Assembly (NCBI GenBank): GCA_950295325.1
Contig: OX485803.1
Location: forward strand, 43,663,554 to 43,727,553
Source of the DNA: Polytrichum commune
Taxonomy: Eukaryota; Streptophyta; Polytrichopsida; Polytrichales; Polytrichaceae
Reading direction: 5' to 3'
Length of the DNA stretch: 64,000 nucleotides
How positions within the stretch are numbered: the stretch's first letter is position 1; each line of letters starts with the position of its first letter. The notes under the pieces are model-generated. The model did no database searches and was not told the origin of the DNA. It saw nothing but the letters and a program-made list of their open reading frames with translations. Shown here one piece after another: positions 5,681 through 40,542 of this stretch. The translations under genes and the position numbers were made by a program.

Positions 5681-5794
5681 CTGCTTATTTGAATTCGTCT
5701 TATCATGTTGAATTTACTGATGGAGTGATGGCAGATGATTATCACACTCTACTTATTGGCATTCACACCATAACTGTCATTTTGTGCAAGAGAT

Positions 5795-7138
5795 GTGTCA
5801 CCATATTGCTTCAACCCTCACACTGAATTCCCAGGCTACCAAAACATCCTTAGAGCAGAACTCAACGCCATACTTACAGCGGTTAAAACCATCCGCACCA
5901 CCAAGATAGACACACACATTTTTACAGACAGTCTCAACAGTATATTCCTAATCAACAACCATATTAGACACCCATCATCCCAACACCATCACCCAGACAA
6001 ACTACTCATAGCCGCAATAATTCACCATATCTATTGGACGCCACACAAAATACATATACACAAAGTAAGAGCACACTCGGGTATTTCCGGCAACGAAATC
6101 GCCGACACACTCACCGTCAAAGGGAACCTCCTAGACAAACCAGCCAAAACACCACACATACACATAGCGCACCAAACCCCATACTGGCTAGCCAGTTGTC
6201 CCACCGCCACACATGATGGAGCCATCCGAAACCTTCACACAATTATAACCAAAGAACATGGAATTCGGGAAACTGCAACAGCTAAACATAGATTCCCTTA
6301 CGTAGACAAATGGCTATCAAACGACCAAATACACCACAAACTTTCTAACCACTTTTGGACAAATGATACGGTCATGGATGCACAAATATCCCAAACGTTA
6401 AAATTTAGATATGCCCAATACATGGGCAGCCACAGAAAAAACATCTTTTGGCCAAACACACACCAAAATCCCAACTGCACATTATGTCCCAAAAACGATC
6501 GAGACACATGGCCGCATCTTCTATCAATGTGTGAACACCCCTTCTTAAAGGGCCTATGCATATCCCGACACAACAAAGCCGTACACCTCATCACACAATT
6601 GCTACAAGCCAACAAAAACACCCGTTTCTATACATTAACTAACGCCGGTAAACACAACAACAACCCCTCAGAACAAACAATCCCAAAATGGCTAATTAAA
6701 TGTACATGCCCACAAACCCCTTGCCTATGCCAAGCCAAACTCAAACCAGACATCCTATGCATAATTGATGCCCCAAACAATACACAAACACCCATAGTTC
6801 CATCCCCCACGACCACAATCCAATTTATAGAATTTACTTACTGCCACGATAGATTCCCCGAACAAGCCATTACCCGCAAACACGCCAAATATGACCCACT
6901 CATTAAAACTATACAAGACCTAGGGTGGAAAACCAACCCCCTAATTACCATTACTGTAGGAATAAGAGGAGCCATCCACACCCACTCCATGGAAAAACTA
7001 GCCCACCTCCATATCCCAAAAAACAATATCAAATCCCTCATGAAAAACCTACACATTAACGCCATTAAATACCTCACCTACCTCATACTCAACAAACGAA
7101 AACTTGATAACAAACAATCACCGGTCCCCATCACATAA
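5795..7138 (+). CDS. LINE polyprotein C-terminal part: RNase H - CCHC zinc finger - restriction-like endonuclease
   Basis: An open frame of 447 codons with no true start; it begins at a GTG and is the continuation of a frameshifted upstream frame. Residues 1-110 are an RNase H domain: E22 in RAELNAI, D45 in FTDS, H94 in RAHSG and D104 in NEIAD. At 228-246 there is a C-x2-C-x9-H-x4-C finger (C228, C231, H241, C246). Residues about 315-400 look like a PD-(D/E)XK-type endonuclease: PD at 318-319, E346 in FIEFTY, then KY at 365-366 and a GIRG turn. In LINEs, a CCHC finger followed by this endonuclease marks R2-like groups; with an RNase H domain the best fit is the Dualen/RandI or Utopia type, though without the reverse transcriptase the clade is an inference. 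The intact frame suggests a fairly young copy. Confidence 0.75.
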   Translation: MSPYCFNPHTEFPGYQNILRAELNAILTAVKTIRTTKIDTHIFTDSLNSIFLINNHIRHPSSQHHHPDKLLIAAIIHHIYWTPHKIHIHKVRAHSGISGNEIADTLTVKGNLLDKPAKTPHIHIAHQTPYWLASCPTATHDGAIRNLHTIITKEHGIRETATAKHRFPYVDKWLSNDQIHHKLSNHFWTNDTVMDAQISQTLKFRYAQYMGSHRKNIFWPNTHQNPNCTLCPKNDRDTWPHLLSMCEHPFLKGLCISRHNKAVHLITQLLQANKNTRFYTLTNAGKHNNNPSEQTIPKWLIKCTCPQTPCLCQAKLKPDILCIIDAPNNTQTPIVPSPTTTIQFIEFTYCHDRFPEQAITRKHAKYDPLIKTIQDLGWKTNPLITITVGIRGAIHTHSMEKLAHLHIPKNNIKSLMKNLHINAIKYLTYLILNKRKLDNKQSPVPIT

Positions 7139-20985: not shown

Positions 20986-21459
20986 AACCCTCCTCTCTTG
21001 CACCCCTTGAGCTCTTTTGGCAATCATTCAGCTCCCATCAAACCATGACAGACGGCCCTGGAAGCCCGGGGGGAGCACTCCCCCATTTTTGTTAGTTTAC
21101 GTGCGATCAAATGAAGGGGTATTATAATTGCCTTGGTCCTAAAATTTAGAAAGGGTTTCGAAGTAAAATAGCATCACCAAAATGGGTATTCTGAATTTTA
21201 TAAATAATGAAGGGTAGGTGATAATACTAAATTTTAGCTGAATATTTGATCTACAATAGGCTTGCCAAAAAACAAAAGCAGATGTTAAATTTGTTTGGAA
21301 GTAAATTAGGCTGGTCTTAATGGGATCCAATGTCCTCAATGAATAATGGGGGATGAAAAATAGAGGCCAACAGTTCATCCACAGCCAACGTTCAATCTTC
21401 CCTCGCTTTGCTGTGTCTTGCAGTTTTTTTCACCACTGATAGGGTTTGTTGTGTTTCGA

Positions 21460-22180
21460 GAAACAACCTTGCTAACGTTGCAGTTTGTGTGGGAGGTTTC
21501 TTGTGTTTCCTAAATGAACATTTCTAAGGCTTTAGGTTGTGTCAGGGTTCTTGTCGCCGAAGGTGAACATTGCTAAGGGTTTCGGCTGTTCCAAGTTTCT
21601 TGTCGCAGAAGGTGAACATCGCTAAGGGTTTCTGTAGGTTCAGGGTTGAGGTCGCCGAAGTCGAACATTGCTAAGGGTTTCTGTAGGTTCAGTTGTGAGG
21701 TCGCCGAAGTCGAACATTGCTAAGGGTTGAGGTAGGTTCAGGGTTGAGGTCGCCGAAGTCGAACATTGCTAAGGGTTGAGGTAGGTTCAGGGTTTAGGGT
21801 CGCCGAAGTCGAACATTGCTATAGGGGTTTAGGGTTTTTTGTTGCCGAAGGTGAACATTGCTAAGGGTTGCGCTTGTTTCAAGTTTCTTGGGTTTCTTGA
21901 ATGATACTTGCTAAGGTTTAGGTTTAAGGGTTTCTTGTTGCCGAAGGTGAACATTGCGGAGGGTTAAGCTTCTGTCAGATTTTTTGTGTTTCTTGAAGTA
22001 TCATTGCTAAGGGTTTAGGTTCTGTCTGGTTTATTGTCGCCGAAGGTGAACATTGCTAACCTTGTAGTTTGTGTGTGAGGTATCTTGTGTTTGTTGATTT
22101 ATCATTGTTAACATTGCAGTTTGTATTTGAGGTTTCTTTTGTTGCTTGAATGAACATTGCTAAAGTTGCAGTTGGTGTGC
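21460..22180 (+). repeat. 49-bp minisatellite in transposon 5' leader
   Basis: Units beginning GTCGCCGAAG start at 21553, 21602, 21651, 21700, 21749 and 21799, i.e. 49-50 bp apart; more diverged units continue to about 22060 and half-like variants extend to the array edges. Each unit contains AACATTGCTAAGGGTT, followed by telomere-like AGGGTTTAGG words in some. The motif GTCGCCGAAGGTGA also occurs in the following coding region at 22485-22498, and GAAGGTGAACATTGG at 22316-22330, so the array may have been seeded from the gene. Confidence 0.85.
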
Positions 22181-22241
22181 GAGCTTAGACTAAGGTTTGC
22201 TGTAGGGTTTTAGTGGTACCTTCCAGCTTTGGATTTGAGGT

Positions 22242-23666
22242 ATGGCTGTGATTCCGCCCGATAGGATCACGCTGTGGACGTTGGAGGGGGAGGGTGCAGA
22301 TCCGGAGTACTTTGGGAAGGTGAACATTGGAGGCGCGTCGACGCTGCAGGCACTTCGGATTGCACTAGAAACGAACGATGCATTAGAGTGGCCTTTTGAT
22401 TTTTGGGACGCCGAAGATAAGCGGCGCGTGCGCAAGAAGTTGGAGCGCCTGAACGGGTTTGAGAAAGAAGTGCATGTTATCAAGGTCGCCGAAGGTGATC
22501 TTCCTGGAAACAAGCGTCGTCAACTTGAAGAGGGGTTGTTCACTTCCACCACTGTGGACGCCGCCCCTGCTTTGGAAAATGAAGGCGGAGCCGGAGGCGT
22601 AGGCGTGGATCCACCTCTCCTGCCCGTGGGTTCATCGAGGGTTACTGGAAGCGCAGACTCCGCCGAGGTATATCATAACCCTCTGAAGTCCAAACTCTTG
22701 CCGTTTGAGGTTATGGATCGATATTTGGAGAGGGCAAAGAAGTTGAGGGCGGAGTTGAAGAAGGTCGCCATGTCTGACCACGACTGGTGGTTGAAGACAT
22801 TCGACTTGAATGGCAATGGAGTGGTGAAATTGTGGTGCGGGGAATGCAAAAAGGATTGCGGGGGTGGCAGCAAGGATCACACCAAAGCACATATCGACAA
22901 CTTGTTCAACAATTTTAGGAGATCGCACATTGTCAGCACAGCCCACGTTCGGAATTTTTGTGCTGCCAAGAATGTCAATTTCGATGACCACCCCCAGTCT
23001 GAGGCCAAGAATGGAAGGCCTCTTACCCTAACTCCAGAGGATCATAAACGGTTGATTTCAGAGGGGGTTGAGATATTGGAAGGGGTGAACTCTTCTCTAC
23101 CAGATGGGCATAAAAAATTCACAGTTTTGGGGAATTTAGGGGCAGAGGATACCAGGTGTTATTGGTTCAAAGTGAAGTGCCCATACTGTAGGGACATGAT
23201 GGTCCTCTGCCCACCACGGAAGACACTCGAAGTGAATCTTAGAAATCACCTCAGTGGTCCAAAACACATGAAGGCTGTCGAGGTAGCAGAGCAACTCCTG
23301 AAGGAACCAGCGAGGACGGGTCGAGCTGGGCGCCCAAGTAGGTCCAGCACAACAAGTTCTCACTCCAATCAAAGTGACCTACACACATGGTTTAGGACGG
23401 CTTCATCAAACAGTGTTGAAGGTACACCTGAAGTAGTCAATAGGGTCATTCTTGTTGGTTTGATGTGCTATGGATATCGTGGTCCAACAGTTGAATATGG
23501 GGGTAATTTTTATGTTGTGAATGCTTTACTGAACGACCCCCATTCTGGTGTTGAATGGTATCCGGAACCACATCTTCGTGTCGATGTAGAAGTTCGTGGT
23601 TTAGTTGTGTGCATGTCAATGGTACATTTCGGCATAGAAAGTGTGTTCGCATGGCTATGGGACTAG
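22242..23666 (+). CDS. Transposase N-terminal part with two BED-like zinc fingers
   Basis: A 474-codon frame starting at an ATG just after the minisatellite leader. The first 100 residues are charged and unrecognised. Two zinc fingers of C-x2-C ... H-x5-H type follow: C199/C202 with H229/H235, and C313/C316 with H336/H342; this spacing is that of BED-type DNA-binding fingers of transposases. Between them and at 359-375 are basic, Ser-rich stretches (TGRAGRPSRSS) that could be a nuclear signal or AT-hook-like patch. The last 20 or so residues look like read-out after a frameshift: the next frame (from 23555) overlaps by 112 bp and carries on with a CPMC motif. The two frames were most likely one protein, so this copy is broken, unless an unseen splice joins them. 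GC content is higher than in the flanks. Confidence 0.65.
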   Translation: MAVIPPDRITLWTLEGEGADPEYFGKVNIGGASTLQALRIALETNDALEWPFDFWDAEDKRRVRKKLERLNGFEKEVHVIKVAEGDLPGNKRRQLEEGLFTSTTVDAAPALENEGGAGGVGVDPPLLPVGSSRVTGSADSAEVYHNPLKSKLLPFEVMDRYLERAKKLRAELKKVAMSDHDWWLKTFDLNGNGVVKLWCGECKKDCGGGSKDHTKAHIDNLFNNFRRSHIVSTAHVRNFCAAKNVNFDDHPQSEAKNGRPLTLTPEDHKRLISEGVEILEGVNSSLPDGHKKFTVLGNLGAEDTRCYWFKVKCPYCRDMMVLCPPRKTLEVNLRNHLSGPKHMKAVEVAEQLLKEPARTGRAGRPSRSSTTSSHSNQSDLHTWFRTASSNSVEGTPEVVNRVILVGLMCYGYRGPTVEYGGNFYVVNALLNDPHSGVEWYPEPHLRVDVEVRGLVVCMSMVHFGIESVFAWLWD

Positions 23667-26008
23667 AGCCTTTCCCAAATCTGACTTGCCCTATGTGTGC
23701 CCAGATCCCACGTGAAAATGATTTCAGAATGAGAATCAGAAGAGAGGACCATGCATTGGTTAAGAGAGGCCACAGAACCACTGCAGGAGGGATACGGTTA
23801 GGGTATTTAGGTGTATATGAAGTGTCGAAACATACAAGAGAGTTGGCTAGAAAATATCGGCTAGAAAAGCTACACTACTGGCATGCTAGAACAAGGATTG
23901 TGCAATTGAAGGCCAGAAGACCAACGATGCGTGAGAGTGCCATAAATGCCTCATCAGATAAAAATTTGATGAAATTTTGTAACAATATTATTAGTGCCCA
24001 TCAGATAGGAGCATTTGGAGGCAAACCTGGACTGTGGGACTTCATGAAGGATGTGGCAGGGAACTTGAATAGGAAGGGTAGTGGGAATCGCTATAGCGAA
24101 AATACTAAATGTTTTTCGCAAGCAATGAGGATCTATGGGGGCCGACGTCTATGTGACTTATTTGCCCTCAACTTTGCTGGACCTAGTTATGACACTATTC
24201 GAAGGGAATGTAGAAAAGGCGTACAGTTCATATCAGGGGAACATGCTGAAATCTTTGAATCCATTGCCTGCATCTATTCCGCTGCTAAAGTTGCGCATGG
24301 CATAAGTGGCCCCATCCCGGTTATACTTGCTGAAGATGAAACAAAGGTCAGGGGGCGGGTTTCTTGGGAGGCGAGGTGGGATACTCTGGTGGGGTTTTGT
24401 GGGCCGAAAGAGAATCACACTTGTATCCCTCATTATAAGCCCACTGTCGGAGTTGGTGAGGTAGGGTACAATAAAATGGTAGACTCGTTTAGGCTTGACA
24501 AGGTGGGGGGGTTTGCAAGAGTAATTGTTGTGAACCCCTTGCATGATAAACTTCCTCGATTGGTGTTGGTTGCTTGTTGTACCTGCGGTTGTTTTGATTC
24601 AGGTTGGGTTAGACAACAATGGGATAGAATCGATGAGTTGTGGACAAAACATTGCTATGCGGCTGTGGGTCCCATTATAGGACATGCTAGTGATGGGGAC
24701 TCCCGTAGGAGGCAGTTAATGCTTCTAGATTATAGAGGTTTAGAGGGGCCGAGGTTAAGTGTGGATTGGGAAGGCTGGGTTTTCACTTCATCTATGAATG
24801 TCGATGGAGAAGCAACCGGCTTGCATGACCAAGACTATATTCACAATGGTAAGAAATTGTTGAATCCCATTGATAGCAATGTGCGTACGTTGCGATTAGG
24901 GGGTGATCTGGCCCTTCACCAACACATTTGCCAAGTGTTCAACCGATTCACAGTGGATCAACATGGGTTACTTCAGGAGGATTATGACAGAAAGGACCGG
25001 CAGAATTGGGCTAGTGCTCAAAGATTATGCTCACAGAAAGTTCGAGACTGCCTGCGGTCCCTTCGTGTGTCTACTGATTTGCACCGTGAACGCACACTTG
25101 GAACCGAGATGTACCTAGAGATATGTGCTGACTATATTGATATGTTTCTTTCCCCAAGTCACGACCTTCGATCTCGGATTGTGAAAGCAGGTAAGGTATC
25201 CTTTTTTTTCCGAATCTGGAAATTGTGGATGAGGCACGGTAACCATGGTGTTATGGGAAATACTGAACATGTGGATCCGAAAGTGAACTTCGTTAGTCAA
25301 CAATGCTTCTTGGATATACAGATGTCGTGTCATTTAATAGTTCTGCTTATTTGCCATTTCCGTGACAAGTATCCTCACTTGAGTGTGCCATTCCACTTAA
25401 CTGGTAGTGACTCATGCGAGATATTTTTCTCAAAGGTTGGGGGCATGGTAGGCATGGAGAGGGCTTATGATTTTCATGAATTAGTTGGTTGTGCAAATAT
25501 TGTTAACCATTTGTCGCAGATTGAATATGGACATAATGGGATCAAGTTCGCGAGGGCACACAACAAGATGAAGAACATTTGGGCAAAGTTGCATCCACTG
25601 AGTGAAGGAGAGGGGGAGCCCAACCTTGGAGACTACAGTCTTGTGTCAACCAATGAGGGCGTTGTTCAAGCCTTAAAGCAGGGACTGAAAGAGGCGCAAA
25701 GGGTGATTACTAGTTTAAACATGGCCCCCAATCCACAAGCTGCTGCGAAGCTAAGGGTATGGTTTGATAAACCATGGATAGTTGAGCGGGCGGACAAACT
25801 ATCTTTTGCCTGGGCGGCCACTTCTAAGCCTGTACGCGGTGAGGATGGCGACATGGAAGTCCTTCGAGAAGATATAAATGAAAAGGAGGACGAGTCACAG
25901 CTCCAGGGTGAGCTGCATGATACTGAACCTGCCGCAGTAGAGCATGTGGAAGAGGACCTCATTGATGACGGGGTCCCAGCTCTTGCAATCGTGGAGAGTG
26001 AGACGTGA
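23555..26008 (+). CDS. P-element-like transposase, catalytic region (RNase H fold)
   Basis: An 817-codon frame. Residues 45-48 (CPMC) may belong to a third metal site. The catalytic core shows, in order, motifs like those of P-element/THAP9 transposases: AEDETKVRG at 259-267 (D261) followed by DTLVGF; GHASDGDSRRRQLML with D380; QDYIHNGKKLLN at 426-437, resembling the P-type DPPHLIKNIRN block; and GSDSCEIFFSKVGG with E622, resembling the QDxxENFF block. Proposed catalytic triad D261, D380, E622. The C-terminal tail is acidic. No THAP domain is present; DNA binding would come from the fingers in the upstream frame. The frame ends at a TGA, and the same frame stays open for 241 codons after it. 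The family match is from remembered motifs only, so it is moderate. Confidence 0.65.
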   Translation: MVSGTTSSCRCRSSWFSCVHVNGTFRHRKCVRMAMGLEPFPNLTCPMCAQIPRENDFRMRIRREDHALVKRGHRTTAGGIRLGYLGVYEVSKHTRELARKYRLEKLHYWHARTRIVQLKARRPTMRESAINASSDKNLMKFCNNIISAHQIGAFGGKPGLWDFMKDVAGNLNRKGSGNRYSENTKCFSQAMRIYGGRRLCDLFALNFAGPSYDTIRRECRKGVQFISGEHAEIFESIACIYSAAKVAHGISGPIPVILAEDETKVRGRVSWEARWDTLVGFCGPKENHTCIPHYKPTVGVGEVGYNKMVDSFRLDKVGGFARVIVVNPLHDKLPRLVLVACCTCGCFDSGWVRQQWDRIDELWTKHCYAAVGPIIGHASDGDSRRRQLMLLDYRGLEGPRLSVDWEGWVFTSSMNVDGEATGLHDQDYIHNGKKLLNPIDSNVRTLRLGGDLALHQHICQVFNRFTVDQHGLLQEDYDRKDRQNWASAQRLCSQKVRDCLRSLRVSTDLHRERTLGTEMYLEICADYIDMFLSPSHDLRSRIVKAGKVSFFFRIWKLWMRHGNHGVMGNTEHVDPKVNFVSQQCFLDIQMSCHLIVLLICHFRDKYPHLSVPFHLTGSDSCEIFFSKVGGMVGMERAYDFHELVGCANIVNHLSQIEYGHNGIKFARAHNKMKNIWAKLHPLSEGEGEPNLGDYSLVSTNEGVVQALKQGLKEAQRVITSLNMAPNPQAAAKLRVWFDKPWIVERADKLSFAWAATSKPVRGEDGDMEVLREDINEKEDESQLQGELHDTEPAAVEHVEEDLIDDGVPALAIVESET

Positions 26009-26734
26009 GACATAATTTCCGAGATGCTGAGCAACCACGAAGGACATGTTCGTTCACTCCCTATCCCAGCTATAGTAGAAGCCTTTGTGGAGTTTGATGG
26101 GCACAGGATATTCAAATCTACGTTGGTCGGGCAGCTGAATGGTAACCCATTCTTGTCGAAGGACAGGTTGACACGGGTAAGGAATTCATTGTATTTTAAT
26201 AATAGCGAGGATTATCTAAGAGCAGCTCAATGCTCTAATACATGTTTTGTCGGAATCGGGTCTGATGTCGGAGTATACTTTTTGCAACGCACTACAATTA
26301 CGAGGCCGTCTACAGTGACTGCCGCAAAGAGAAGGGGAAATTCTCTAGCTAAAAAGTCTGGCAGGGTCGCGCCAACACTAAAGGGGGTGGACGAGGGAAC
26401 CTGGTGGGTTGGCCGCATACAAAAGATGCGAAGGCGTGCTAGTGGGACGTCGTGGGGGTCTCTGAAGCACCCCGTGGATATTGCGAACAGGGAGGTATTA
26501 ACAGGCAAAAAAAATACCCTGATTTCTAGTGTAGAAGTCATTTTGCATTATTACACCCGAGCACCCGGTCAATATAAATTCAAGTATAACTTAACAGACT
26601 CTAAATGGATTAGTCTTGAGTCGATAATTACTAATGTCACTCTCACTTATAAGTATGAGACTCAAGTTTACAGCTTGGACAGGGGTGATGCTGAGAACTT
26701 GAATGAGTATGTATTGAACAAGAGAGTGGAATAG
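26009..26734 (+). CDS. In-frame continuation of the transposase after a TGA codon
   Basis: Directly after the stop of the 817-codon frame, the same frame is open for 241 codons; the first ATG is at 26024, only 15 bases past the stop. The sequence is not random-looking: PIPAIVEAFVEFDGHRIFKS is followed by a conserved-looking, basic middle (KKSGRVAPTLKG) and a strand-rich end. It is probably the C-terminal domain of one transposase cut by a point mutation, or a product made by read-through or re-initiation. It ends in TAG at 26732-26734, 16 bases before a good splice donor (AAG/GTAAGA at 26751). No known domain recognised. Confidence 0.5.
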   Translation, partial: DIISEMLSNHEGHVRSLPIPAIVEAFVEFDGHRIFKSTLVGQLNGNPFLSKDRLTRVRNSLYFNNSEDYLRAAQCSNTCFVGIGSDVGVYFLQRTTITRPSTVTAAKRRGNSLAKKSGRVAPTLKGVDEGTWWVGRIQKMRRRASGTSWGSLKHPVDIANREVLTGKKNTLISSVEVILHYYTRAPGQYKFKYNLTDSKWISLESIITNVTLTYKYETQVYSLDRGDAENLNEYVLNKRVE

Positions 26735-26750
26735 CATTCAAAGATATAAG

Positions 26751-27499
26751 GTAAGACCTAAACATTCTCCTCAACTTAGTCTTCTCCTTCAAATCTGGCG
26801 CATATTTGGGCTTCTCCTACTGAACATTAAACTATCTGTTTAAGTCTATGTGGGATGTTAAGGTTAGTTGTGAGTTACGCCTTGAATGATACTAAGGGTT
26901 TAGCAGCTACTAAGGGTTTAGGGGTTTAGGGATTTTGGGTTTGAGTTACATTTTTTAGGGTTGAGCTGCATTGCACAGGGTTGAGCAGGCAGTAAGGGTT
27001 TAGGGGTGTCTAAGGGTTCAGCTACATTTACACAAGTTTGAGGTGCATTGCACAGGGTTTAGAAGGCAGTAAGGGTTTAGGGGTTTCTAAGGGTTGAGCT
27101 ACATTTTTGCAGGGTTGAGGTGCATTGCACAGGGTTTAGAAGGCACTAATGGTTTAGGGGTTTCTAAGGGTTGAGCTACATTTTTGCAGGGTTGAGCTGC
27201 ATTGCACAGGGTGTAGAAGGCACTAATGGTTTAGGGGTTTCTAAAGGTTGAGCTACTGTTGAAAGGGTTGAGCAGGCACTAAGGGTTTAGGAGTTGGTGT
27301 TCTGATCCATCTCTTTTAGCTACAGAGGTTTACTGAGGGTTATACGAATGTTTGAGGGGTGAGGAAGCTTTTATACTAAGGTTTAAGTGGTTGCTTCTAC
27401 CCTAATCTAAGCTCTGAGAGACATTGCTGTGGCTGTGAACAAAGGGTGCGTTTTCTAAACCCTACCATGTGCTTCATTGTTGGGTTCTTCCTTTTGCAG
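26751..27499 (+). other. Probable intron containing the 77-bp minisatellite
   Basis: Donor AAG/GTAAGACC at 26750/26751 and acceptor CTTTTGCAG/GATAC at 27499/27500. The minisatellite units inside carry their own acceptor-like TTTTTGCAG words (near 27109-27117 and 27181-27189). Splicing is inferred from consensus only. Confidence 0.4.
26914..27300 (+). repeat. 77-bp minisatellite
   Basis: Unit starts (AGTAAGGG or ACTAATGG) at 26991, 27068, 27145 and 27222 are exactly 77 bp apart; a shortened unit follows at 27278. Each unit has GGGTTTAGGGGTTTCTAAGG, then GGGTTGAGCTGCATTGCACA. The AGGGTTTAGG words are telomere-like, as in the 5' array, although the units differ. Confidence 0.85.
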
Positions 27500-27686
27500 G
27501 ATACTATGCTAGTGAATTTAGGGATAATTGCTAGGGTTAAGTGTTGTTGGGGGATTCAAAGGGTAATAATTTGGAGGTTTGAGGGTAAAGGTTGAATGGC
27601 CCACCCTATTTCTCAAGTGGTTTTTGTGGCTGATGGTAGGAATTTGGTAACCTCTTCACCCTGCCCCTAATTCCTGAACTGCTGCA

Positions 27687-28196
27687 ATGGAGATGCCACA
27701 AATGAATAAGACCCATATTGTCTTGGATGCACTCCTTGAATATGTCCTTGAATTTTGTTGCCTTTCTGGGTGTCCTTGGGTTCGATACGAGCGTTCTCAC
27801 GTGGACCGGGGCGCACTGCTGAAATTGCTGTCAACTTTGGCGAGTGTTTCGACAAAGACCCGGGAGGATGCTGCAAACACGGTGCAACTCGCAGCGCTCC
27901 GGCTGGCGTCCCATGATGTGCAGCTCATGAAGGGGAGTTTATCTCCAGTGGAGGCGATGTCGCATGCCCTTAATGAATTTGACATCAACATGGACGTCTT
28001 CAGCAAGGATTGGAATGTGGACTCCCCAATCCCGGAACACTTATGCAGAAGCTCGTTGCACGAGCTTAGCGTAGGAGAACTGCGACATCTTCGAAACCTG
28101 ATTTATGGAGGTTGGAATGAGGAGATAGTTGCGCATGGAGGAGTCGGAGAATCCCAGTCCCCGCGTATGTGGCTGACACCGGCACACAGAAGTTAA
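27687..28196 (+). CDS. Second reading frame of the transposon, unrecognised 169-residue protein
   Basis: An ATG-initiated frame on the same strand as the transposase, behind the probable intron. Predicted protein is mostly helical in character (LLKLLSTLASVS; AANTVQLAALRLASHD; ELSVGELRHLRNLIYGGW) with no known domain, signal peptide or membrane segment. Base composition is close to that of the transposase and unlike the flanks. The stop is followed at once by a donor-like AAG/GTAAAT (28198) and an acceptor TTATGCAG at 28311, so transcripts may continue. It could be an accessory protein of the element, or a downstream exon of the transposase in another frame. Confidence 0.45.
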   Translation: MEMPQMNKTHIVLDALLEYVLEFCCLSGCPWVRYERSHVDRGALLKLLSTLASVSTKTREDAANTVQLAALRLASHDVQLMKGSLSPVEAMSHALNEFDINMDVFSKDWNVDSPIPEHLCRSSLHELSVGELRHLRNLIYGGWNEEIVAHGGVGESQSPRMWLTPAHRS

Positions 28197-28840
28197 GGTA
28201 AATGACCCTACCCCTTGATTTTTCGGAACTTTGCGATTGTTTGTGAACATTTGTGTGCACATAATCAACTTGGAATGCCACTGACATCAATGGATTTATG
28301 GTGTTATGCAGGTTTCCAAAAATTTTGCGCATTCAGGGTTGAAGCAATGAAAGGGCTTAGAGTTTAGGAAACTTTTTTCCTTGCATAGATATGGAAGTGT
28401 ATAGCAATATTACAAAGTAGACACGTAGGTTCAGTTGTGAGCCTTGTAAATGAACAATATTGTGTTTTTGAACACAACCCTATACTGTTCAATGAATGTT
28501 ATCCTAACCCTATTCCTCTTGGACTGCTTTTTTGTATGGACTCGTGCATGATGAATGTTTTCATTTCATAACCCTAAACCATGTGTATGTTGATGAGGAA
28601 GGATTTTGGATCAGAATGGTCCATCTTAGTGATTACATATATTTGGCGTAGTTTTGTGTGTTTGAACTTCATGATTCAACACACGGCAATTAATTCCAGG
28701 CTTTCAGTTGACCCTTTGTACATGAGATGTTGTTGCAGCTGGAGTTTTCATCTGTCTTCTCGATGTGAAGTGTTTTTCTTGATGAGGAATTGTCTAAGTA
28801 GGAAAATTTGTTCCCTTGGTTATCCCGATTAGCAATGGGT

Positions 28841-29164
28841 GGATGGCAGCCAAGCGTTCATAGCGACGTTGATTTTTGATCCTTTGATGTCGACTCTTCC
28901 TATCATTGTGAAGCAGAATTCACCAAGTGTTGGATTGTTCACCCACCAATAGGGAACGTGAGCTGGGTTTAGACTGTCGTGAGACAGGTTAGTTTTACCC
29001 TACTGATGCACGGTGCCGCAATAGTAATTCAACTTAGTACGAGAGGAACCGTTGATTCACATAATTGGTCATTGCGCTTGGTTGAAAAGCCAATGGCGCG
29101 AAGCTACCATGTGTAGGATTATGACTGAACGCCTCTAAGTCAGAATCCATGCTAGAAGCGGCGC
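28841..29164 (+). pseudogene. 26S rRNA 3'-domain fragment inside the transposon
   Basis: About 320 bases match the conserved 3' part of plant 26S (25S/28S) rRNA: GGCAGCCAAGCGTTCATAGC, GAAGCAGAATTCACCAAGTG, GGGAACGTGAGCTGGGTTTA, the sarcin-ricin loop AGTACGAGAGGAACC at 29036-29050, and GACTGAACGCCTCTAAGTCA near the end. Similarity starts abruptly near 28841 and stops at 29164. Differences from the usual plant sequence are largely C-to-T or G-to-A (for example CCTTTGATGTCGACTC where CCTTCGATGTCGGCTC is usual), as expected after cytosine methylation of a non-functional copy. Not a working rRNA gene. Confidence 0.9.
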
Positions 29165-29423
29165 TTTTGGAAAATTCATGTCTAAACCCCTAGAAAATAG
29201 GGTTTGATGTTGTATTTATAATGAAGATAGCCTACAAATAATTAGTCCAACAAAAAATTTATAATGAAAAGTAGGGCACATGAAATGAACAAAATTTAGA
29301 AATTTAGGTAAACATAGGCCTACGATAATCAACAAAATTTACATACATAGCCCCCATGTAATAGGGGCTTGAACGCACGTGATCCTCAAACACCATATCT
29401 AGTGCTCCCCCCGAGCCTGGAAG

Positions 29424-35499: not shown

Positions 35500-38477
35500 T
35501 CACTTCCTCCGAAGAAGGGAAGCGAGGGCTTGCAGGTCCCCTCCCTCGTCTACCTGACCTGCAGGTCCCAGTCCCCCATGAGTCCTGGACTTTTGTAGGG
35601 ATTCCAGGAGGCTCTGTTCGCTGGCAACTGACAATGGCTCCTGCAGGCTGCTGGACGGCATGCCCATGTCGTATTGGTGGTGCATCCCAGCTTGGAGGTA
35701 GTTACCGATCCCCTCCTCCTTCACTCTCGAGTAAGGCCCGGCACCAGAGCCACTTGGCATGCCCATCGAAAGTCCCGAAGTGGGTGACAGCTGCGAGTGA
35801 TCTGCAAGGTGCTGCATGTACTCCACCGCTTGGTTTGCCGTTGCTCCGAAGCCCACCATTCGTTGCTGTAACTGCTGCTGCTGTTGCTGATGATGATGCT
35901 GCTGCTGTTGGTGGTGGTGATGTTCGTGAAGATTTGCGTTGCGATCAGTGAGCTGCGCTTGCACTATTGCGAGCTCCTGCTGCAGTGCTGCTACCTAAAC
36001 GAGCAAATTGCAGATCACTTGTTGTCAAAAGCGGCTTATAGATAACTTCTATATAATATATGTAATACCTGTAGGGTTCAATAGTAGAAAGAGAACAAAA
36101 ACTGCAAGCGAAAGTCATTAAGTTTGACGCCATGGTATTACACTAATTACACGTAGGCACCACGTACGGTCCTCCCTCAGTCGCTTCGCCTGTCCTACTA
36201 CTGTAGAGTTATGAGATCCATCTGGTTCACTCGAACCGATGAACCTCGAGAAGGTTGATTGACGCTCACAAGACTTGAATTGACCTCAGAAACCAAATCT
36301 TAGCTTGATGTGCCTGAATGCCTTTGCAAATATTATGGACGTGACTCTTTCCAAATCAGATACTATTCCGTCAATTTGATGTAGTGGTAAGTAATTACAC
36401 AGTGTTCACAGTCTCCTTGACACCAGATCATTGCACTCATAAGATTTCAAACTGGACAGTCAACCAGTACTGTTTTCAACCTAGGCCGAATCGCTGATGG
36501 ATCCCTCAAAATCATTCATAGAATCTGATTGGAAGTCAAACTATCAATCTGAAGCTGATTGGAAGCGTTCCTCGGAATGACCCCCCGAAAGTCCTAATGA
36601 GATTTCATTATCAACACGTGAAATGGTAGACCATTGTCGTCACAAGAATAAAAGATGTGCAACTGAATTCAGGATGAATATAACACTGGACCTGATATGA
36701 GGTACTCTTTTAGGTAGTTTCCTGCTTACTAATGTTATCGCCACATACTTCGCTCAATTCAAATTTCCCTCAATGAATTATTGAACTTCAGGTACAACCG
36801 CAGCTCTAACTTCAGCACTGAGTTAGTGCTGATGGGATTCTTGAAGAAATGAGCATGACCCATTTCTTTATGGGACTTCAGCTATATTTTAATCAACGGC
36901 AGCGTCCATTGCAGCGGAAATTTACCCCTTGCTAATCCAGCTATGCTTAAAGCCGATGCCAAGATTGACTGTAATCTCAAAACCAGAAAGCCCCTCTATA
37001 TAACTGTTGAAGACACTTACTAGGGTAAGACCCCGAAGATCTCCTAATGGTCATCCCTCCATCATTCAAGTGCCGGTAAACCACAGTCTTGGGTCTGCCA
37101 TGAATCTTCAATTGGTTTTAAGAAAGATTCACCGACAAGAGTCGCGCCATATTACAGGCCAACTGGAGTTCCCGTTATAAGTTTCAGACAATTGGAGTGC
37201 CGCCCCATTGAAATCAATTTCGCGACTTGCACTGTTTCAAGCGCTCCATGTATATCATCAACCTGCCTACATACCTCGTGATATGTCTTGGTAGAGAGTG
37301 GCTCAAAAACAGTTATAAGTAATGTGAAACCTAAAATGTTGCACTGCTCAGTGATCAGACTAGCTGGCCAAAATACCAGGTACTTAGCGAGTCGCCAAGG
37401 GCAACCAGCAGCTACTCCAATTGTATCCGACCTCAAATCCTTGGTTGTAGCTATATAAGATCATGGAACTAGAACCTAAAAAGGATGCTCTCAACCACAA
37501 AAGCTATTCTCGGTCCTTGAGCGTCAAGTGTCCAACACAATGTTTCTTTGGGCTTGTCAAAACAACCTCGATCGGCATTAATTCCTACTGCAATCGCGGC
37601 CTCTTACGACCGTTACAAGCTATGCCTAGCACCTGAATCCAAAGTATCCCCCTGGACCAGGATTTTCTGAAAGAAAAACCCCAAGTGGATTGGTTTACTG
37701 CCACGATTCAGATACGAATTCAGTGTCTGGCACACGAATTCAACATAACAAGATTGAGGTGTCCTAGCCTACGGGGTTTAATTGCAACTGCAGTCAATTC
37801 GATCTCATCGGAAGCTGCCACGGAGATAACAGAAGTTGAGTCCCTTATGATGTACCAAGCTAGATTTGTAGTTCCAGATCGTACATCAATTCAGCCACAA
37901 GAAGCAGCTAGATATCCAAATGGAGAAGAAGACAATTTGTGACTCAGACCCAGTGGCTAAATAAGATACTGCGGGATATGTGAAAATGTCTTCAAGACCA
38001 GTGAGTAATTTAGAGAAAGCACCCCCTTCAGCAAGATTAAATTCCAAGCCTGCGGCTTTGCACGCACTAGCGATTGAAGGAAGTGTGCACCTGCAAACCG
38101 GAGGTCCCAGGGCGGGAGCGGCCCGCAGCACTGTGACTAGGCAAATCCTAACCATCTTGAGTAAACCCAAACCTACTTAGGTTCATGGAGGAAGAACTGA
38201 CCTGTTGCTGGAGGGCAAAAATTGTGGCCACGCAGCCGTAGACAGGATCAGAGAGTCTAGCTTGCGCTTCGTAGCTGATGGTCAGCACAGCATCGCAGCG
38301 TCGTGGCGTCGGAATGTGCAACAACAGCTTGGCCACATTGCTGGCCCCAAAAATCTTGTGCACAGCGGCAAACTTGGCAGCCCCTTGCTCGGCACCGAAG
38401 TAAGGCGCAAAAATGCAACCGCGCACACACTTCCTGCGGAGGAACTTGCAAGCGCCGCACGGCGCTCCACTGCTCAT
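35500..38477 (-). CDS. LBD: Class I LOB-domain (LBD) transcription factor, two exons
   Basis: Exon 1 is 38477-38202 (92 codons) and exon 2 is 35994-35500 (164 codons plus TGA); 256 residues in all, a normal LBD length. Donor CAACAG/GTCAGT and acceptor CGTTTAG/GTAGCA give a phase-0 intron just after FALQQQ, the usual LBD intron site. Residues 7-21 form the C block C-x2-C-x6-C-x3-C ([15 protein letters not shown]), about 36-56 the GAS block ([20 protein letters not shown]), then [13 protein letters not shown] and DPVYGC, and a coiled coil running across the splice junction ([15 protein letters not shown]). This coiled coil marks class I. The [20 protein letters not shown] stretch is closest to the LBD16/18/30-like subgroup, from memory. 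The C-terminal half is His/Gln-rich and variable, probably for activation. LBD proteins are nuclear DNA-binding regulators of organ boundaries and lateral organs. The start chosen is the ATG that gives [10 protein letters not shown]; the frame stays open 207 codons upstream without another ATG. Confidence 0.92.
35995..38201 (-). other. LBD intron, 2.2 kb
   Basis: Bounded by consensus GT (minus strand, at 38201) and AG (at 35995). Long for an LBD gene. Moderate GC, no transposon ends recognised inside. Confidence 0.8.
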
Positions 38478-40542
38478 GGACGTGTTATATCCACTTCCCC
38501 CACTGCCACCCGCTGCAGCTGCTGCGTTTCGACGACCGGAATATTCCTGCGTTCCTGCGCTCCTAGCCTTCGCAGAGCCCCGCGCTGCCTGCTCTAACGC
38601 CCTCTCTCGGTCGGAGCCAGTGTCGGAGCCTGGCTCTCGACCGCCACTGGAGCTGTCCAGATTATTGTGTGCTCCTGTGCTGTCCGATGCAGCAGGAGCT
38701 CCCTGAGACTGCTGGACCCAATTCTTGACCTGCTCTAGTTTCTCTTTGTCCCGCGAGCTCCAGCTCTCTCCCAGATCCTTGTCGCGCGAGGAAGCCCTGC
38801 CCCAACTGCTCTCGAGAGGCTCTCGGCTGGCCTCCCGCCCCCACGGTTGCACCAGCTCCTCGCTCTCGCGGAGCGCCGTCTCGCTGCCCTCCTGTACTGA
38901 GGGCCGCTTGCCTGCTCGGCTGCTCTCTGCCAGCTCGAGAGCGGATGCCACACCCCACTCTTGCTCCTCGCCGCTACCCTGATCGTCCTCGCCCCGCGCC
39001 AGTTCCCGCAGCGTGCCTCTCCCAGGACCCGCCAGCCTGCTACTTGGGCAGCCACGCTTGGCCCCTCCACACGGTGATTGCGTTGTATCCGAATACACCT
39101 AGGGCGGAATTCGACTACATACACACCTCCACATTCACTATACCTGTTGGACTTTGTCCAGGTCGCTTTGTAATCTCGCCCTGTACTGCTGATAAACCTA
39201 GGATGCGATCGAAGCTGGTCATGCAACTTGGTCCTCGAAGTCTGCCAGGTTTGATGGAGCAGTTGCGCACGATGCAGCGAGTCTCCGTTCGGGTTTGTCT
39301 CAAATCTGGACCAGTCTATCATACAACACGCAAATTCTCCGTCTTTGTGCATGGAGCTCGTCCCCAGCCTATTGCTATCCTGGAACAAAACGCATATGTG
39401 GCAGGAGGGAGTGCATGGTCTGTGTAGCTGAATACAGGATTCCGGTGGAGCTTTGCAGTGTCGAAATTGCGGAGGAATCTTTCCTGTCACGATGATGTGG
39501 GTCTGGCAGTATTTCTGGTGTGACGAAGTTGCTCGGTTTAACCTAGCAGCTCTAAGTAGATGCGAGCGATCCAGGTAGAGTATCTGGGCAGCATCATGCG
39601 TATCTTTCTGTCTGCACAATAATAATTAATCCTCCGAAAGTGACGACAAGGGAGCAGCCTAGCTAGATCATGAGGAATGATCAAACAATCATATATTCCA
39701 ACCGTATGCAACCTCCGTTTCTCAAATCTTCTGGTGAGGGTAACAAAGTAGCAGCTGCTGGTTCGTCAGTACTCTTCTGGTCTAGACGAATCCTTAAAAG
39801 GGATCCCTCTGCACAGCTTGGTCGGGTGCTCCTCTTGCGAGCCTCCCTACCGCTTTCCGTTGCATGAAGAGCACCTAGTATCCACCTAGTATCCCTGAAA
39901 CTCCGAGCGAGTGCCACAACCCCAAACCGAAGCCAGAAAACACGCTTGCCCCAGCTATCTATGCCAACCCCACGAGATCGAGCGGCCGACTCTTGCCCGT
40001 CCTAACGCCCCGCTAAAAGCGCTTGCGTACGACTCTCGGGTCCGGAAAAACGAGCGAGTCAGTCCGCTCCAAGAAAAGAGCGCCCAGGCGCAAAGCCGGA
40101 TGCAGGATTCGACTATGTACGAGTGACGGCACAGCGGGAAAGGGAGGGCCTGCGAGCGGGCGGCCGGGCGGGCGCGCGGGTGGGTGGGTTTTGATCCTTG
40201 GGCGTTGGGCTGGGCTGGGCTGCGCGAGGAGCAGGACTACCTTGTAGGAGCCACGACGCCGCGAGTGACGGGTGGGGTGAGGAGTTGAGCTGGGCTTTTG
40301 GATGCAGGTGGTGATGAGCCGTGGAGTGTCGGAGAAGGCAGGCGAGCGGGCAGGCGAGCGGGCGAGCAAGCGGAGGGCAGGGCGCGAGGCTTCCGGGCAA
40401 CGATCGCGATCGCAGGCGACGGAAAGACCTGCTTCTTTTGCTTTGTTTGTTACTTGTTTTTGCTGCGGAATTTGGCGGTGGGCCCTCGCTCGCTCGCTCG
40501 CTCACCCCAGCCCGCAGACTCCTCGTCAAACCCCCTACTACA
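38478..40542 (-). promoter_or_regulatory. GC-rich 5' region and likely promoter of the LBD gene
   Basis: GC content is much higher than in the window at large, peaking at about 39950-40510 with CG-rich simple sequence (GGGCGGGCGCGCGGG near 40168, and CGCTCGCTCGCTCGCTC near 40487). On the minus strand this lies upstream of the LBD start and most likely holds leader and core promoter. The minus frame open from 39098 to the ATG could be leader or an N-terminal extension; it begins just after a possible acceptor (CGCCCTAG/GTGTAT), so an upstream exon cannot be excluded. Long frames on the plus strand here are side effects of high GC. Confidence 0.5.

Follow-up and report, generated by a model that had tools for sequence, protein, structure and literature searches.

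The locus examined here raises the question of which superfamily of DNA transposons gave rise to an element of 8,351 bp in the land plant Polytrichum commune (assembly GCA_950295325.1). The element lies in a window of 64,000 nucleotides (contig OX485803.1, positions 43,663,554 to 43,727,553, forward strand), which was analyzed at its full length; all positions below are those of the window. Very probably, the element is an autonomous type of cut-and-paste DNA transposon, present here as a damaged copy, and its transposase shares homology with those of the P-element superfamily. The evidence consists of the ends and target-site duplications of the element, its copies across the genome, an unbroken frame in a sister copy, purifying selection between subfamilies, and homology to P transposases at the level of sequence profiles.

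The sequence at both ends agrees with the original prediction, which had described 15-bp terminal inverted repeats (TIRs) alike at 14 of 15 positions and flanked exactly by an 8-bp direct repeat; CCTGGAAG is present on each side as the target-site duplication (TSD). When the whole window was scanned for identical 8-mers around 15-bp inverted repeats (at least 13 of 15 positions matching, at most 15 kb apart), this was the sole such structure, and the same scan of random windows with the dinucleotide frequencies of the window found one such pair in 1 of 40. A chance origin of the TSD and TIRs was therefore rejected. Farther inside, the partners of a subterminal internal inverted repeat (ACGTGCGATCAA and ACGTGCGTTCAA) match at 11 of 12 positions, a value equalled by 1 of 200 mononucleotide shuffles (compared at corresponding positions, with an offset of no more than 2). 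Among the 14 copies shown, 10 have an unchanged core of this repeat on the 5' side (CGTGCGATCAA), and 10 have an unchanged core of the 3' partner.

Both ends were searched for in the genome to which the window belongs (407.8 Mb in 64 contigs, seven of which account for about 406 Mb). The left end has 24 matches including the window; among the 23 others, the match starts precisely on the first repeat base in 10 cases and no more than 3 bases from it in 18. The right end has 25 matches including the window, and for 15 of the 24 others the match ends at most 3 bases from the final base. Sequence was retrieved for 20 of the 23 other left-end places (the three weakest were left out), and for three of these (L022, L025, and L026) the right end is absent from the retrieved stretch. 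This leaves 18 copies with both ends (17 plus the window), and their duplications, read by eye, are identical at 8 of 8 positions in 10 copies, at 7 of 8 in four (L009, L015, L016, and L023), and unclear in four (L021, L024, L027, and L028). The genome-wide check proposed in the original prediction thus came out in its favor: the ends recur at the same bases, 14 of the 18 copies have duplications matching at 8 or 7 positions, and copies ending elsewhere were not seen among the genome copies. Five long copies were retrieved (L009, 8,315 bp; L010, 8,441 bp; L015, 8,947 bp; L017, 8,126 bp; and L019, 7,483 bp). The remaining 12 both-ended copies are 734 to 3,355 bp long, sizes being approximate for the four unclear ones, and they retain the ends without much of the middle, like the deletion derivatives of P.

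The transposase of the window copy is broken twice (a frameshift lies near 23.6 kb, a stop at 26006-26008), whereas the sister copy L009 carries the same transposase as a single intronless open frame of 1,497 codons. An intron/exon reading of the two main frames was rejected because L009 has both of them as one frame. The original prediction had spoken of a large multi-part transposase; its parts are not exons and belong to one frame interrupted by a frameshift and a stop. In L010, L015, L017, and L019, the frames are broken at other places than in the window. When L009 is compared with the open pieces of L017, L015, and L019, the ratios of nonsynonymous to synonymous substitution rates (dN/dS) are 0.172, 0.181, and 0.195, respectively, and these low values indicate selection on the protein during the divergence of the subfamilies. 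For pairs of near-identical copies, the ratio is 0.53 to 0.75, based on few changes, and the comparison of L009 with the window copy, which is out of frame, was left out. By eye, the first approximately 80 residues of the transposase (22242-22500) have the look of a ubiquitin-like beta-grasp.

Homology to P transposases was found by comparing profiles. A profile of 41 sequences, comprising the window frame and 40 relatives (A2), matches a profile of 42 P proteins with P = 7.6e-9 over 407 columns (probability score, 95.8), compared with P values of 0.33 and 0.25 for reversed controls and 0.16 for the best of 19 column shuffles. The match is co-linear, with the same order over the helix-turn-helix region, the RNase H DDE domain, and the insertion, and the alignment, which was built without reference to active sites, pairs residues of P with those of the window family as follows: D230-D261, D303-D380, D339-D427, H342-H430, K345-K433, D528-D619, and E531-E622. 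The roles of these residues in P are taken from the available portions of PMC7776569 and PMC8230255. D382, two residues past D380, is D in 81 of 81 rows of the A1 alignment and might instead be the counterpart of D303. At E < 0.005 (20,000 sequences), searches of 120 P proteins picked out 11 with the A1 profile and 9 with the A2 profile, and 0 of 120 when reversed; in the other direction, searching 120 relatives with the P profile picked out 2, and none of the reversed set. Single P proteins compared with A2 all gave P values between 0.0068 and 1.8e-5 (6 of 6, three of them chosen as the best of the cross search). The Pfam family TNP-like_RNaseH_N is matched by 2 of the 41 A2 members (best, 2.6e-4; the other, P0063, at 0.062, is under the cut-off). 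Among PDB sequences, the A1 profile has no meaningful match. Overall, the strong co-linear match, with catalytic residues in register, sustains the original description as a P-like or sister superfamily member, and the region would be expected to adopt an RNase H fold with an alpha-helical insertion.

The element resembles P in more than its transposase. The 8-bp duplications are common to it, to Drosophila P (PDB 6p5a/6pe2), and to the P superfamily (Pfam PF21787, PF21788, and PF21789), and both it and P have terminal and internal inverted repeats and shorter deleted copies. The repeats of Drosophila P are 31 bp (terminal) and 11 bp (internal), as given in the available portion of PMC7776569. 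The distance between the first two catalytic aspartates (D1 and D2) is 119 residues in the window family, with a Cys/His cluster in between, and 73 in P, and the transposase is about 1,497 amino acids long compared with 751 for P. Furthermore, the window family differs from P in its C-terminal module, its second gene, and its terminal sequence. In human THAP9, D2 is followed by the D-x2-H motif at 40 residues and by the catalytic E at 239 (numbering of PMC8230255, from the portion available); the corresponding distances here are 47 and 242. According to PMC7776569, THAP9 belongs to animals and its product has a THAP domain, which was not found in the window transposase.

Several results weigh against a transposase of P type. 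Identity to P in the profile alignment is 14%, and the Drosophila P transposase alone was not found by hmmsearch with either A1 or A2 (E values of 220 and 93). The window protein itself has no sequence match in PDB and no transposase match in Pfam, and the Pfam scan that gave TNP-like_RNaseH_N returned 38 families up to E = 10, several of them by chance and three with better E values than that family. A search with Pfam PF21787 found no match in this genome, although it found none in control genomes either. Three of the four diverged copies examined are without TIR and TSD in the stretches retrieved. The THAP pattern is absent from the L009 protein, and the GTP contacts K385, K400, V401, F443, and N447 of P are replaced in the window family.

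A loose THAP pattern is present in 4 relatives, in two of them inside the catalytic region; no Pfam THAP match was obtained when 4 frames of the window and 36 of the relatives were each scanned by themselves at E cut-offs of 10, 1, or 0.1, many relatives being cut at the N terminus. Some P proteins of the comparison set likewise list no THAP. Among the GTP contacts, D528 is kept (70 of 72), D444 aligns with D or E in 68 of 76, and S409 is aligned but is S in no more than 25 of 79; even among the 42 P proteins, just 21 have K at K400. As judged from the alignment, the window family appears not to carry the GTP-binding residue set of the P insertion domain. Between the first two catalytic aspartates, in a stretch absent from P in the alignment, C282, H288, C290, and C344 are conserved almost without exception (76, 79, 79, and 77 of 79) and would together form a zinc site.

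The C-terminal region, marked by KSTL...LSKDRLTRV, is common to 14 aligned sequences of both plant and animal type. One relative, P0086, has a BAH score of 3e-5, under the Pfam cut-off, and the A4 profile has no meaningful match in PDB; this single sub-threshold match offers a lead that the module is possibly a BAH domain. Two other relatives, P0101 and P0102, have a C-terminal Tudor domain like that of PTM/DIR17, above the Pfam cut-off, which by sequence is another type of chromatin reader within the same transposase family.

Could the element belong to hAT, the usual plant superfamily with 8-bp duplications? Elements such as Hermes make duplications of this size and have an RNase H DDE domain with a helical insertion, and 8-bp duplications combined with short terminal repeats fit hAT. 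PMC3985635 also groups P with hAT as a single clade among RNase H-like proteins. However, A2 has no profile match with Hermes, the one hAT sequence compared (P = 0.54, against 7.6e-9 for the P profile), and the window frames, scanned against Pfam up to E = 10, matched no hAT family; a hAT origin is disfavored and very unlikely, the least probable of the readings considered. Some members of MULE, KDZ/Zisupton, Merlin, and Novosib also make duplications near 8 bp; that same scan returned no transposase family at all up to E = 10, and with P motifs in register an origin in one of these superfamilies appears very unlikely. The original prediction had named structural matches only to hAT, MULE, or another superfamily as evidence to the contrary; nothing of this kind was seen in the sequence comparison, where Hermes, the sole hAT representative, gave no match. 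That the window copy is broken, as are the long copies L010, L015, L017, and L019, would suit a long-dead repeat or a host gene of domesticated origin, with no working transposon. This explanation is likewise very unlikely, a touch less probable than an origin in MULE and the other superfamilies named with it, given left ends at 24 places, differing flanks among the copies shown, two copies 98 to 99% identical to the window copy, and internally deleted derivatives. A protein search of the genome also gave at least 60 matches, some being pieces of one element, and nine of those listed have no stop within the match and a frame of at least 1,490 codons.

A more serious competitor is a separate superfamily that is sister to P, a distinct lineage that shares with P an ancestral DDE enzyme carrying a helical insertion but has its own DNA-binding and C-terminal modules. 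The failure to find THAP, the C282/H288/C290/C344 cluster, and the changed GTP contacts all speak for it, as do the deep split between plant and animal rows and the failure of hmmsearch to find the Drosophila P transposase. Cross-detection with P is nevertheless direct, without intermediates, P has closely similar D-x2-H and D-x2-E motifs at similar spacing, and the boundary between a deep clade of P and its sister is partly one of convention. We give this explanation a little less than an even chance. The same somewhat doubtful standing applies to its fuller form, in which an ancient sister of P, predating the plant-animal split and still active in a land plant, would have had THAP and the GTP-reading insertion replaced by a zinc cluster in the RNase H domain, N-terminal zinc modules, and a C terminus resembling chromatin readers.

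The relatives of the window transposase number 125 at E ≤ 0.001. The best 120 of these include sequences from the liverworts Riccia sorocarpa, R. fluitans, and Calypogeia fissa, the fern Adiantum nelumboides, the brittle star Amphiura filiformis, and the hydrozoan Clytia hemisphaerica, along with two eukprot records. A tree was built from the A1 alignment with 80 of its 82 rows (two were too short); in it, the 8 rows from plants (the window and seven named ones) and the 3 animal-labelled rows need one change each, with full support; 69 rows are unlabelled, and one of the three animal labels, that of a eukprot record, was guessed.

More distant copies in the same genome show other arrangements. 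The diverged copy C6:18752154 has terminal repeats of about 200 bp starting CCCTCCAAGG (L033 from 1104 onward and L034 1-202) and an exact 8-bp duplication, CATTAATG; the transposase of its subfamily is 58% identical. Galileo, a member of the P superfamily, has long terminal repeats, and the likeness lies in the repeats of about 200 bp and the 8-bp duplication of this copy, whereas the repeats of the window subfamily are 15 bp. The transposase copies L033/L034 (C6) and L035/L036 (C5) are 99.5% identical only from one point and differ upstream. The breakpoint seems to lie within the reading frame, a pattern that would correspond to module exchange or a chimera.

If the element is a P-type cut-and-paste transposon, as we favor, its transposase would recognize both the terminal 15-bp repeat and the internal one, which lies about 35 bp from the end; the helix-turn-helix region and zinc modules would stand in for the THAP domain. 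An RNase H-fold site made of D261, D380, and E622 would cut both ends and join them at points 8 bp apart, in the manner of P. Movement of the window copy would require protein supplied by an unbroken copy, and the shorter copies look like internal deletions moved by protein from unbroken copies. The second gene may have a role as well. The features of the element are collected in Table 1.

Table 1. Positions of the features of the element within the window.
Feature	Position	Strand	Basis or remark
Left 8-bp TSD, CCTGGAAG	21057..21064		Sequence read; whole-window scan
5' TIR, CCCGGGGGGAGCACT	21065..21079	+	14/15 with 3' end; common to genome copies
Subterminal internal inverted repeat, ACGTGCGATCAA	21099..21110	+	35-46 bp from 5' end
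Tandem repeats of TTTAGGG-like words	21515..22173	+	Upstream of transposase frame
Transposase, N-terminal part	22242..23666	+	Two Cys/His zinc-finger-like stretches, by eye; frame runs past frameshift
Transposase, catalytic part (817 aa)	23555..26008	+	Family homology from about residue 18
Codon D261	24335..24337	+	Aligned with catalytic D230 of Drosophila P; D in 75/76 A1 rows having the residue
Codon D380	24692..24694	+	Aligned with catalytic D303; D in 78/81 A1 rows
D427-x2-H430	24833..24844	+	Aligned with D339-x2-H342, start of insertion domain; D 80/81, H 81/81
D619-x2-E622	25409..25420	+	Aligned with D528-x2-E531 (E531 catalytic); D 70/72, E 72/72
Transposase, C-terminal module after in-frame stop	26009..26734	+	KSTL...LSKDRLTRV motif; possibly BAH-like
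77-bp tandem repeats	26922..27256	+	Between transposase and second gene
Second gene (169 aa from ATG)	27687..28196	+	Open frame in 5/6 long copies
Captured 3' end of large-subunit ribosomal RNA	28838..29165 (approximate)	+	Rfam match 28793-29261, 181.7 bits
3' partner of internal inverted repeat, ACGTGCGTTCAA	29369..29380	-	36-47 bp from 3' end
3' TIR (AGTGCTCCCCCCGAG)	29401..29415	-	Common to genome copies
Right 8-bp TSD, CCTGGAAG	29416..29423		Sequence read; whole-window scan

The second gene is open in the window, L009, L010, L017, and L019 and is shortened in L015. Its dN/dS between subfamilies is 0.42 to 0.54, indicating faster evolution than that of the transposase, and none of its 37 relatives has a named function. 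It was not found in the retrieved stretches of the four diverged copies. The ribosomal RNA (rRNA) piece is present in the window, L009, and L010 and is missing in six other aligned copies. This piece has 53 matches in the genome, and nine dispersed ones span positions 31-348 of the query at 91 to 92% identity with the same ends; these look like a separate rRNA-derived repeat family.

Two neighboring features lie outside the element. A gene for a LOB-domain transcription factor, a plant family, is found at 38151-39098 on the minus strand and marks the window as nuclear DNA of a plant. A frame of 454 amino acids with an RNase H domain (PF00075) at 5774-7135 on the plus strand is possibly a retroelement remnant.

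Older tables credit P elements to plants or algae. For land plants, Table 1 of PMC9033089 lists Tc1-Mariner, hAT, Sola, MuDR, PIF-Harbinger, and CACTA, and P is not listed there; nor is P among the seven TIR superfamilies in plants given in the accessible text of PMC10741241. In the portions available, PMC11939994 describes P as lacking in one angiosperm, PMC5791352 describes it as mostly restricted to Drosophila, and PMC7776569 describes THAP domains as restricted to animals. Our literature search, whose scope excluded preprints, Repbase entries, and most subscription papers, turned up no account of P elements in land plants. P has been treated as an animal superfamily, and the P-like family described here occurs in this plant, in liverworts, in a fern, and in animals. 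Such a spread allows one to ask which parts of the P mechanism, chiefly the use of GTP and the THAP domain, are ancestral, and the unbroken frames provide a transposase open to testing.

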